A stretch of DNA of 64,000 bases from Mucilaginibacter cryoferens. GTDB lineage: Bacteria > Bacteroidota > Bacteroidia > Sphingobacteriales > Sphingobacteriaceae. Made by a program: the position numbers and the translations under genes. Shown piece by piece: positions 1-33,735 of this stretch. Each line of letters starts with the position of its first letter. Position 1 is the first letter of the stretch. The notes under the pieces were generated by a model, which was not told where the DNA came from, did not search any database, and saw nothing but the letters and a program-made list of their open reading frames with translations. Location: contig NZ_JACHCR010000027.1 in the NCBI RefSeq assembly GCF_014205845.1, forward strand, positions 1-64,000, written 5' to 3'.

Positions 1-83
1 AACAAAATTATGAAGACACCTAATTGTATCTCGGGCATTAGAAACTTAAAAAAAATACACTGAAAATCAACACTTTACAATCA

Positions 84-546
84 TGTCATTATAAGCGATA
101 ACGTGGCAATCTCGTAGCCATGCAAAGCGAATATGCAGGTCGAACTATAAAATACGATATCCGCCTAAGCATGAAAGTTCACGATTATTATATTTACATT
201 TTATCGAATAAGGCCAACACCGTATTTTACATCGGGGTAACTAGTGATTTACAAGGTCGCATAGCACAACATAAACAAAAAGTAAATAATGGCTTCTCTG
301 CCCAATATAAGTGCTATAGGTTAGTATACTACGAAGATTTTCAATGGATACAAGATGCCATAGCCAGGGAAAAACAATTAAAGGCGGGTTCTCGTCAAAA
401 GAAAATTGACCTCATAGTGGGCTTTAACCCTTCGTGGAGTGATTTGAGTGAAGCCTGGTACGACTGAAAACTTCTCTGCAATCGTTGAACCTTGCATATT
501 CGCTTTGTATTGGCTACGAGATTGCCGCGCTACGCTCGCAATGACA
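84..546. repeat. Inverted-repeat element enclosing a GIY-YIG gene
   Basis: The left arm (84 to about 145) and right arm (about 484 to 546) are imperfect reverse complements of about 60 bases. Both contain the core GGCAATCTCGTAGCCA and the word AAAGCGAATATGCA. The outer ends are TGTCATTATAAGC on the left and GCTCGCAATGACA on the right, like other repeats in this window. The 98-codon GIY-YIG gene fills the loop. A version with the same core but no gene lies at 13072 to 13156. The arrangement suggests a small mobile or formerly mobile unit; that is inference. Confidence 0.75.
171..467 (+). CDS. GIY-YIG nuclease family protein (URI-like)
   Basis: A small single-domain GIY-YIG endonuclease of 98 residues. 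The Y-I-Y strand is at residues 7 to 9, Y-I-G at 20 to 22, the conserved arginine at R30 and the metal-binding glutamate at E67 in REKQLKAGSR. All catalytic positions appear present, so the protein is probably active on DNA, but its natural substrate is unknown. An earlier in-frame ATG at 120 lies inside the repeat arm and would add 17 unrelated residues; the ATG at 171 matches the usual family start and was chosen. The gene sits between the arms of an inverted repeat, and a homologue at 24612 also sits among repeats of the same family. Confidence 0.85.
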   Translation: MKVHDYYIYILSNKANTVFYIGVTSDLQGRIAQHKQKVNNGFSAQYKCYRLVYYEDFQWIQDAIAREKQLKAGSRQKKIDLIVGFNPSWSDLSEAWYD

Positions 547-13020: not shown

Positions 13021-13071
13021 GTCCATCTGGAACGAGGTAGCTTAAGTAAACCCCGCGAGGTTATGATATCT

Positions 13072-13369
13072 TCATTGCGAGCGCAGCGCGGCAATCTCGT
13101 AGCTCTACAAGGCGAATAAGCATTGCTACGAGATTGCTTCGTTCCTTATAATGACATACTTATAAAGTATTGATTATCAGCATGTTTTTTTTAACAAAAC
13201 ACCCTCGCCACCGTCATTGCGAGACACGAAGCAATCCCAGACTTACAGAGTAGCCGTCCAAATCCGCCCTGTATTTTGGGGATTGCTTCGTCGTACCTCC
13301 TCGCAAGGACGGCCTTTTTAAGATGTCATGACTGTTTTTTCCAGGTTAACCCTGGTTGTCACGCAATGA
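13072..13369. repeat. Composite REP-like repeat module, copy 1
   Basis: Begins with TCATTGCGAG and ends with CGCAATGA. It contains an empty palindrome (13072 to 13156) with the GCAATCTCGTAGC core also found in the GIY-YIG element at 84, then a REP hairpin (13211 to 13312; arms CGAAGCAATCCC and GGGGATTGCTTCG), then a hairpin CCAGGTTAACCCTGG at about 13340. From 13159 onward it aligns with 24378 to 24602 along about 220 bases. The rest of the gap up to 13445 shows nothing else. Confidence 0.8.
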
Positions 13370-24351: not shown

Positions 24352-24600
24352 TGTCATTGCGAGTGATACCACGGCAATTAAAAGTTATAAATAATTGATT
24401 GTCAATATACTTTTTTCAGACAAAGCACCCTCGCCACCGTCATTGCGAGGTACGAAGCAATCCCCGATTTACAGAGTAGCTGTGCAAATCCGCCCTGTAA
24501 GTAGGGGATTGCTTCGTCGTACCTCCTCGCAAGGAAGGTCTTTTTTTAAGATGTCATTACTGTTTTTTCTGGGTTATCCCCGGTTGTACCTCGCAATGAC
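24352..24600. repeat. Composite REP-like repeat module, copy 2
   Basis: Bounded by TGTCATTGCGAG and CTCGCAATGACG. It contains a REP hairpin (24437 to 24538; CGAAGCAATCCCC and GGGGATTGCTTCG) and then a hairpin resembling CTGGGTTATCCCCGG. It aligns with copy 1 across about 220 bases. It ends 11 bases before the stop codon of a GIY-YIG gene. Confidence 0.8.
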
Positions 24601-24611
24601 GATACCTAGGG

Positions 24612-24917
24612 TTAACGCATATCTTCAATTAATCCTCCGTAAAGATCTAACCATTGAGCATTCATTTCAGTTATTAACCTTATCTTCTTAGCTCTGCTTC
24701 CACCCTTCAATAATTTCTCAGCAGCTATAGCTTCTTCTATATGTGCATAGCCTTTATAATAAACCAGTTTATTACAATTATACTTCGCAGTAAAACTATC
24801 GGGATAGGTTTTGTTTCTATGATCCCATATCCTGCTTATTATGTCTGACGTTACACCAATATATAACACCGAATGCGTCGTGTTAGTAATGATATAAATA
24901 TAGCCTCCTCTTCCCAT
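24612..24917 (-). CDS. GIY-YIG nuclease family protein (URI-like)
   Basis: A second single-domain GIY-YIG endonuclease, 101 residues. Y-I-Y is at residues 6 to 8, Y-I-G at 19 to 21, with R29 and E67 at the catalytic positions; KGGSRAKKI resembles the matching segment of the protein at 171. The two are clearly paralogous though diverged. Repeat modules lie on both sides (24352 to 24600 and 24995 to 25096). The bases just upstream (TGTTATTGCGGGC near 24946) loosely mirror the CTCGCAATGAC downstream. The DNA target is unknown. Confidence 0.85.
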   Translation of the reverse strand: MGRGGYIYIITNTTHSVLYIGVTSDIISRIWDHRNKTYPDSFTAKYNCNKLVYYKGYAHIEEAIAAEKLLKGGSRAKKIRLITEMNAQWLDLYGGLIEDMR

Positions 24918-24994
24918 TATTAGTTATGTAATACTATAAAGCCGTGTTATTGCGGGCTATCAACGTATATTATGTGTATCTATTAGCTTTAATC

Positions 24995-25096
24995 ACCCTC
25001 ATTTCGAGGTACGAAGCAATCCCCGATTTACAGGGTCGCTCTGAAAATCCGCCTTGTAAGTTGGGGATTGCTTCGTCGTACCTCCTCGCAAGGACG
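24995..25096. repeat. REP hairpin upstream of the second GIY-YIG gene
   Basis: Arms GAGGTACGAAGCAATCCCC and GGGGATTGCTTCGTCGTACC surround a 45-base centre that resembles that of the copy at 24437. It ends in CTCGCAAGGACGG. Confidence 0.8.
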
Positions 25097-25758: not shown

Positions 25759-25854
25759 CCGTCATTGCGAGGTACGAAGCAATCCCCGACTTGCAGAGTA
25801 GCTATACAAATCCGATCTGTACAGTTCGGGATTGCTTCGTACCTTATAATGACG
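25759..25854. repeat. REP hairpin with alternative right end
   Basis: Left arm GAGGTACGAAGCAATCCC; the right arm GGGATTGCTTCGTACC ends in TTATAATGACG instead of CTCGCAA. It begins composite copy 3, which runs to about 26050. Confidence 0.75.
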
Positions 25855-25891
25855 TGATTTTAAATAATTGATTATCAAATGGTTTTTAAAC

Positions 25892-25980
25892 GTAGAGGCG
25901 CATCACATGCGTCTCACGCATGTAAATCCAACCTTGCAAATCCGATTGCCTGACGGGAGACGCATGTGATGCGCCTCTAC
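25892..25980. repeat. Perfect 24-bp inverted repeat replacing a REP
   Basis: Arms are exact 24-base reverse complements (starting GTAGAGGCGCATCACATG, ending CATGTGATGCGCCTCTAC). They occupy the place held by the REP hairpin in composite copies 1 and 2, between TTGATTATCAAATGG and the CCAGGTTAACTCTGG hairpin at about 26020. Confidence 0.8.
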
Positions 25981-26004
25981 AAAACCCCCGTTTGCAATTA
26001 CGTC

Positions 26005-26050
26005 ACTCCCGTTTTTTCCAGGTTAACTCTGGTTGTCACTCGCAATGACG
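26005..26050. repeat. Right end of composite module, copy 3
   Basis: CGTCACTCCCGTTTTTTCC, then AGGTTAACTCTGGTTGTC, then ACTCGCAATGACGC. It matches the right ends of copies 1 (13326) and 2 (24551). The remaining bases to the nadB stop show nothing else. Confidence 0.7.
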
Positions 26051-33480: not shown

Positions 33481-33735
33481 TGAGGGGAGCAAGGATTGAT
33501 GGAGTAAGGATCAAGGATATTTTAACTAAAATTGCATACCGCTCCGTCATTGCGAGGTACGAAGCAATCTCTACATATGCAGATCGAACTTGCATGGTTT
33601 TTCTGTAAAGCATAGAGATTGCTTCGTACCTCGCAATGACGGGGCCGTAATATCCCAGCTATATCCCAACTCTGAAATCGCCTAAGTCCTTCTGTCTTTT
33701 ATCTTTGCTCCTTGCTCCAAAAATCTTAATCTCTC
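33481..33735. repeat. Stutter palindrome (GGAGCAAGGATT family) with a REP nested in its loop
   Basis: The left arm (33482 to 33520) has GGGAGCAAGGATTGATGGAG. The right arm (33697 to 33735) has CTTTGCTCCTTGCTCC, then AAAAATC. The words are those of 30900 to 31110. A perfect REP hairpin occupies 33544 to 33642. The right arm ends two bases before the stop codon of the glucosaminidase gene. Confidence 0.75.
33544..33642. repeat. Perfect 29-bp REP inverted repeat
   Basis: Arms 33544 to 33572 and 33614 to 33642 are exact complements (CCGTCATTGCGAGGTACG and CGTACCTCGCAATGACGG at the outer ends). This is the cleanest copy of the TCATTGCGAGG subtype in the window. Confidence 0.9.

Follow-up and report, generated by a model that had tools for sequence, protein, structure and literature searches.

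Small GIY-YIG nuclease genes flanked by CGTC-tagged REP palindromes, candidate minimal mobile elements of bacteria

Results

A GIY-YIG nuclease gene lies between inverted REP arms

The window analyzed here, a stretch of 64,000 nucleotides at the start of a contig of Mucilaginibacter cryoferens, carries close to its left end a complete GIY-YIG nuclease gene that is bracketed by two inverted arms (Table 1). The arms are 54 nt in length, and a repeat search aligned them as one segment of 22 nt at 91% identity and another of 18 nt at 94%; the left arm opens with TGTC, and the head of the right arm reads as GACA at positions 543–546. The open reading frame of the 98-residue protein has an alternative, longer start at position 120, and a Pfam search of this protein reported PF01541 and no transposase domain. 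As lone single strands the arms of the unit fold no better than shuffled sequences (z = −0.2 and +0.6), the right arm with a 5-bp stem. The first-pass annotation of this DNA had described inverted arms around a complete GIY-YIG gene, together with a gene-less palindrome elsewhere in the window that shares their core, and both descriptions hold. In particular, within the gene-less copy GCAATCTCGTAGC pairs at 13 of 13 positions with its complement around 21 nt, and of 200 shuffles, 199 fold less well than positions 13070–13156 do as a single strand (z = −3.6).

Table 1 Features of the window, with positions counted from its first nucleotide.
Feature	Position	Strand	Basis
Whole unit: REP arm, GIY-YIG gene, inverted REP arm	84–546	+	Sequence, ORF list, repeat search
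Left arm, TGTC head at 84–87 (variant TGTCATTATAAG)	84–137	+	85% inverted identity to right arm
GIY-YIG nuclease gene, 98 aa	171–467	+	ORF; Pfam PF01541, E = 5e-17
Right arm, head TGTCATTGCGAG on minus strand, exact	493–546	−	Sequence, motif scan
Gene-less palindromic copy of the arms	13072–13156		Arm core and complement, BLAST, folding
Gene-less pair of another REP type of the genome (CGTCATTGCGAG ... CTCGCAAGGACG)	13212–13311		Motif scan
Gene-less REP pair adjoining second GIY-YIG gene	24438–24601		Motif scan, locus inspection
Second GIY-YIG gene, 101 aa, between two gene-less units	24612–24917	−	Domain search, Pfam
Degenerate gene-less unit on opposite side of second GIY-YIG gene	24945–25096		Motif scan, locus inspection
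Gene-less REPs	25760–26050		Motif scan, locus inspection
Gene-less REP pair, heads outward	33545–33641		Motif scan

Gene-less copies of the arms are abundant in the window and in the genome from which it comes. With up to two mismatches allowed, TGTCATTGCGAG occurs 17 times in the window, as compared with 3.7 expected occurrences and a maximum of 8 in 100 shuffles; exact copies of YGTCATTGCGAG number 210 in the 6.95-Mb genome, in which the reversed control is found 0 times, and many of the 100 places listed are arranged in plus/minus pairs ~70–160 bp apart. Comparison of the unit with its own genome by BLAST returned 93 matches. Besides the unit itself, the matches listed are confined to the outer parts of the query (positions 1–90 or 418–502, equivalent to window positions 60–149 and 477–561), and none of them covers the gene. 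Some span only query positions 1–36, that is, a spacer and a variant head that lie beyond the arms of the gene itself. Thirteen readable gene-less places were inspected from this comparison, and complete palindromes of ~85 bp that contain the core GCAATCTCGTAGC and its complement were found, among others, at L292, L288, L285 and the copy at 13072–13156 of the window. The view that the small gene-less copies are derivatives of gene-bearing units is supported by these copies, which share only the outer parts of the unit, and by an internally deleted copy in S. meliloti.

Six GIY-YIG domains are encoded by the genome, two within open frames of 457 and 604 amino acids and four in standalone genes. 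Repeats adjoin three of the four standalone genes, namely the two in the window and the C15 copy (L038), and a clean inverted repeat surrounds only the window copy at 171–467 and the C15 copy; the fourth gene sits among fragments of tRNA-Met. The chance that three of four genes would fall within 300 bp of the motif is ~2 × 10^-5, as calculated from the motif coverage of contig C1. (A separate inverted repeat, composed of GTAGAGGCGCATCACATGCGTCTC and its complement, lies next to REPs at least twice in the genome, at window positions 25890–25985 and at L014.)

GIY-YIG genes adjoin REPs in many phyla

A protein-only scan of genome contigs yielded 219 confirmed loci, the best 80 of which (set A) span 18 named phyla plus five unplaced, although this count of phyla may be too high because many of the records are metagenome bins and because L079 resembles a Chryseobacterium locus. 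(L079 is labeled Streptomyces sp. ISL-12; its GIY-YIG protein is identical, and its flanks are near-identical, to those of L077 from Chryseobacterium sp. ISL-6, and the contig is probably contamination.) Among these best 80 of 219 loci, GTCATTGCGAG with at most one mismatch lies within 250 bp upstream of the gene at 73, downstream at 74, on both sides at 68 and on at least one side at 79, and at the sole exception, L049, the motif is 284 bp away. An upstream motif on the plus strand and a downstream motif on the minus strand occur together at 58 of the 80 loci. The density of exact motifs in set A is 4.65 per kb within 250 bp of the gene versus 0.17 per kb beyond 750 bp, a ratio of 27. When the nearest motifs are considered, both heads point outward at 34 loci, delimiting a unit of 357–559 bp, both point inward at 20, where the gene is situated between two REP pairs, and the orientation is mixed at 14; 12 loci lack a motif on one side or both. 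GIY-YIG homologs of this kind are therefore located at REP-like repeats and not mostly away from them. The first-pass annotation had placed the pairing of REP-like palindromes with GIY-YIG genes in the group to which the window belongs; the pattern stands, and its confinement to that group does not, as it extends far more widely.

Two further sets of loci carry the same head on different stems. Set C was drawn from 114 genomes of the class to which G148, a bin named Alphaproteobacteria, belongs, and comprises the 30 PF01541 loci with the best scores; set P comprises 12 of 33 matches from a plasmid collection. Many of the GIY-YIG genes in sets C and P are positioned between inverted CGTC/TGTC REPs with stems unlike those of the window. 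The REP that accompanies a GIY-YIG gene in S. meliloti, CGTCATCCTCGGGCTTGACCCGAGGATCCA, has a 9-bp stem when folded and a CCA tail; that of A. lipoferum 4B is CGTCATCCCCGCGAAGGCGGGGATCCAG, the GIY-YIG gene being located between sufB and sufC, and that of N. aromaticivorans is CGTCGCCCCGTGCTTGACACGGGGC. A CGTC/TGTC head followed by a stem that starts with AT is common to the window and most of the sampled repeats, with exceptions that include Sphingobium, with an ACCCC stem, and N. aromaticivorans, with GCCCC. A GIY-YIG homolog at positions 601–864 of a Neisseria gonorrhoeae record (L297) is found amid seven copies of GTCATTCCCGC in 1.46 kb, repeats that fit dRS3.

The two flanks of one gene were compared as inverted repeats at a threshold local score of at least 30. 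The flanks of the same gene reached this threshold at 15 of 30 alphaproteobacterial and 10 of 12 plasmid loci, as opposed to 8 of 300 and 9 of 120 pairings of flanks from different loci, respectively. No pair of shuffled flanks (0/150 alphaproteobacterial, 0/60 plasmid) or of far windows (0/30 and 0/12) did so, and neither did the flanks of any of 30 ParE toxin genes from the same 114 alphaproteobacterial genomes. In set A, 47 of 79 usable loci passed, but so did 192 of 790 mismatched pairs, because set-A loci share one REP type. Among Bacteroidota loci chosen by domain score alone (set B), 11 of 29 passed. (Note that one set-A locus, whose flank was short, was omitted and that nine loci at contig ends, five in set C and four in set B, were scored at assumed coordinates; without these nine the counts are 15/25 for C and 11/25 for B, with the same loci passing.) A strict hairpin finder detected outward pairs at 3/79 loci of set A, 0/25 of B, 6/12 of P, 7/25 of C and 0/30 ParE controls, and hairpins on either side at 41/79, 9/25, 8/12, 10/25 and 9/30, respectively. 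The presence of any YGTC hairpin on either side fails to separate alphaproteobacterial GIY-YIG genes (10/25) from ParE genes (9/30); this finder is both too strict and unspecific, and the inverted-repeat scores were used instead. With a second hairpin finder, an identical stem was detected on both sides at 44 of 150 loci.

Some of these genomes are rich in REPs, and a repeat that crowds intergenic DNA might adjoin any small gene by coincidence. The ParE genes, none of which passed the same threshold in the same genomes, the difference between matched and mismatched flanks, the near-to-far ratio of motif density in set A and the low chance value in the window's own genome all speak against such a coincidence, which we find hardly conceivable; the ParE control and the mismatched flanks in themselves rule out chance or intergenic crowding. 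In our judgment, the association of GIY-YIG genes with REPs is secure.

Repeat type corresponds to nuclease clade

Residues Y9, Y20, G22, R30, H34, E67 and K71 are present in 153 or 154 of 154 proteins (those from 150 of 151 loci, L183 having been lost, and four from the window's own genome), and the catalytic residues of the GIY-YIG domain are intact. The protein, ~95 amino acids long and without a separate DNA-binding domain, has a fold nearest those of UPF0213 and of the branched-DNA nuclease Slx1, with I-TevI among the structural matches. No HUH transposase is present among the matches listed by Foldseek and VIA-align, which in itself excludes nothing.

We examined the distribution of repeat type in a phylogeny of 114 GIY-YIG proteins (93 columns; every second set-A row used; 52 of 109 inner forks unresolved). 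The label ATTGC-REP requires 4 changes on this tree as compared with 35.9 when labels are shuffled, and 0 of 500 shuffles gave a value as low; with rows labeled "none" left out, the distinction between REP and tRNA context requires a single change. Clade I contains 18 loci, 10 from the Bacteroidota set and 8 from the alphaproteobacterial set, and clade II is the large clade that contains the window's gene. REPs of the GAG..TCGA type are found on both sides of the gene at 14 of 18 clade I loci, versus 2 of 112 in clade II, 0 of 14 in the tRNA clade described below and 0 of 30 ParE controls; on either side they are found at 17, 10, 3 and 5 loci, respectively, these counts omitting six rows that belong to neither clade. 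Repeat type thus follows the clade of the enzyme and not the phylum of the host, the tree labels and the GAG..TCGA expression having been chosen after the flanks had been inspected. Individual genomes illustrate how a REP can be distributed: in G170 the head GTCATGGCCCGCG occurs 25 times, as one 379-bp pair with the gene, eight gene-less pairs of 101–127 bp and seven single copies, and nine other genomes contain 0 to 2 copies of it. G261 contains three copies of its own REP head, two at the gene and one elsewhere.

At the level of whole genomes, no simple relationship links the number of motifs to the number of GIY-YIG genes, as G002 and G053 illustrate. G002 contains 602 copies of GTCATTGCGAG yet only two PF01541 matches; eight short stretches inspected there show nested gene-less repeats, and four longer ones were covered by motif scan only. 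G053 contains 25 PF01541 matches and none of the window's motif, and its gene L125, the one locus inspected, has YGTC hairpins of the AGTTC type. An excess of REPs like that in G002 would be expected if another transposase, for example a tyrosine transposase, moved the units and the GIY-YIG gene were cargo. We nevertheless consider this very improbable indeed, in that GIY-YIG is the only gene family that recurs between the arms at the loci inspected, that REP type follows the nuclease clade, and that, as far as the available sections of the paper by Di Nocera et al. (PMC3733652) go, no tyrosine transposase gene is flanked by CGTC repeats in the species treated there. (At L253–L264 of G002, TGTCATCCTGAG-type palindromes are nested inside ATTGC-type ones, with heads in tandem.)

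A second clade adjoins tRNA genes

Many GIY-YIG genes are without detectable REPs, and not every standalone GIY-YIG gene belongs to the REP system. A second clade adjoins tRNA genes in place of REPs: a tRNA gene was present on the 3-kb locus at 9 of 29 Bacteroidota and 2 of 25 alphaproteobacterial loci, versus 1 of 30 ParE controls. At the tRNA-clade loci (L001/L037, at C4:322250 of the window's own genome, L123, L130, L132, L137, L140, L143, L144, L145, L146, L166 and L179), gene and tRNA share a strand in 12 of 12 cases, and the gene is downstream of the tRNA in 11 of 12. The locus that differs, L132, contains three tandem GIY-YIG genes, each behind a 5′ half of tRNA-Pro. Further pieces of the same tRNA are present at 8 of the 12 loci, at 5 of them with pieces of at least 27 nt. 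Judged by their sequence organization, these loci look like insertions into tRNA genes accompanied by repair of the tRNA.

Units are present or absent at corresponding sites

The Chryseobacterium locus L077 contains a 381-bp unit between two genes. Among 12 relatives in which both flanks are on one locus, 9 have no REP at this site with up to three mismatches allowed; what resemble decayed ends are retained in L228, in L238 and perhaps in L236. At a second site the unit is present in 4 of 15 loci (L223, L227, L233 and L250, the first two being from the genomes of L092 and L093), and the other 11 carry 227–1288 bp of other DNA without the motif. In S. meliloti Ak57 an intact unit adjoins a copy that has been cut to a REP, a C-terminal remnant of the gene and a second REP; where Ak57 has the unit, Sinorhizobium sp. 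K101 has REPs without a gene. No target-site duplication is evident at the junctions of L077 and L092, whose flanks have diverged. The insertion polymorphism between relatives that mobility predicts is accordingly seen, for whole units at the Chryseobacterium sites and for the gene between REPs in Sinorhizobium, and in each case either gain or loss could have produced it.

These comparisons bear on two other explanations. The main rival, which we judge rather unlikely, is homing: a free-standing GIY-YIG gene would invade existing REPs by cutting gene-less ones and being copied in by repair, and the REPs would be its targets and not its products. The position of the gene between REPs, the gene-free REPs of K101 opposite the unit of Ak57, and a fold known from homing enzymes, with I-TevI among the structural matches, are all as homing would have them. 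At the L077 site, however, the 9 REP-free relatives mean that the gene and both REPs differ together, and the ends of units agree with the gene-less pairs of the same genome, as homing would not lead one to expect. Alternatively, the protein might be a domesticated or housekeeping nuclease that processes or removes REP hairpins and is kept near REPs by selection for regulation. Its conserved active-site residues and the proximity of its fold to the repair nuclease Slx1 would suit such a role, which is nonetheless very unlikely in view of presence and absence at orthologous sites, several copies per genome and a remnant copy.

Discussion

Our findings raise the possibility of a mobile element in which a nuclease of about 95 residues is the sole protein. 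We consider it probable that the unit at the start of the window is an autonomous mobile element of small size, bounded by REP palindromes and with the GIY-YIG nuclease gene as its only gene, such genes being the partners of CGTC/TGTC-tagged REPs. As proposed in the first-pass annotation, GIY-YIG proteins may be the mobility factor of these palindromes; the partnership of the two is supported by our data, and mobilization by the protein itself is something that we infer.

CGTC-tagged REPs, most of them alphaproteobacterial, were described in 2013 by Di Nocera et al. (PMC3733652), who in the available sections of the paper state that they "apparently lack a dedicated transposase" and report stems of 8–9 bp, loops of 4–5 nt and a CCA tail, with Neisseria dRS3 and Rickettsia RPE-4 and RPE-6 among their members. 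The repeats described here are likewise intergenic palindromes with a CGTC/TGTC head and, for the most part, a stem starting with AT, and in three organisms or species named in those sections the alphaproteobacterial ones fit the reported stem, loop and CCA tail. Unlike in the available sections of PMC3733652, where no gene is associated with these repeats, a GIY-YIG gene is found here between them, and the ATTGC repeats of the window differ in their loop, which varies, and in their stem, which at 5 bp is shorter. The window-type repeats belong with the CGTC-tagged REPs; their GIY-YIG partner corrects the description of a family with no partner gene and does not exclude them from membership.

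The unit can also be set against other systems. REPtrons consist of RAYT tyrosine transposases with GTAG-tagged REPs, and they share with the present units a single nuclease-type gene between inverted REPs and many gene-less REP copies. The enzyme here, however, is a GIY-YIG nuclease and not an HUH tyrosine transposase, and the heads are TGTC/CGTC instead of GTAG; the REP–GIY-YIG–REP unit works like a REPtron but is not a member of that class. HUH enzymes form a covalent DNA intermediate, which no GIY-YIG enzyme is known to do. GIY-YIG homing endonucleases of the I-TevI kind and free-standing homing genes resemble the present genes in their catalytic domain and in behaving as mobile genes, whereas the units at the loci inspected are without an intron and lie between genes, have palindromic ends, encode ~95 amino acids with no separate DNA-binding domain, and are missing as a whole at some sites. 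Slx1 and UPF0213 proteins are titled in the PDB as branched-DNA nucleases or as uncharacterized, unlike the family here, which is tied to REPs. As with MITEs, gene-less copies share their ends with a gene-bearing unit, and an internally deleted copy was seen; unlike in MITEs, each end is a hairpin whose head is left unpaired. A target-site duplication was not evident at the L077 and L092 junctions, with their diverged flanks. In open-access PMC full text, a scope that leaves preprints and subscription journals outside, we found no paper linking GIY-YIG proteins to REPs. To our knowledge, no bacterial element described so far combines REP ends with a GIY-YIG nuclease as sole protein.

How might such a unit move? 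The gene is positioned between REPs, with both nearest heads most often pointing outward, the clade of the nuclease matches the REP type, and gene-less copies share the ends of the unit, with up to hundreds of motifs per genome. When the DNA strands part during replication, transcription or supercoiling, a REP may fold into a hairpin or cruciform, which the small GIY-YIG nuclease could recognize and nick at the YGTC boundary. From such a nick, host replication and repair might copy the unit, or transfer it, to a different intergenic location, frequently next to or within other REPs. The outcome is seen in units that are present or absent and in gene-less or deleted copies, which presumably are moved in trans, and the act itself may be as outlined. 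The best reading of our data is that the GIY-YIG genes are autonomous partners of CGTC-tagged REPs, and it is likely that the nuclease itself moves them. On balance we also lean towards a broader account, in which REP–GIY-YIG–REP units are widespread minimal elements whose structure-recognizing nuclease acts both in cis and in trans to move CGTC-tagged REPs, clades of the enzyme have coevolved with REP types across phyla, a sister clade has specialized on tRNA genes, and DNA mobility through hairpin-directed GIY-YIG insertion is a general phenomenon.

A specific partner gene makes the origin and spread of CGTC-tagged REPs a question for the bench; as the mover that these orphan palindromes have lacked, the GIY-YIG gene is the strongest candidate. 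If the nuclease does move REPs, there would be a second route to REPs, one that uses GIY-YIG chemistry instead of HUH transposases, and autonomous elements could be very small, at ~0.4 kb. Many genes that at present are annotated merely as "GIY-YIG nuclease family protein" would, in addition, acquire a probable role.
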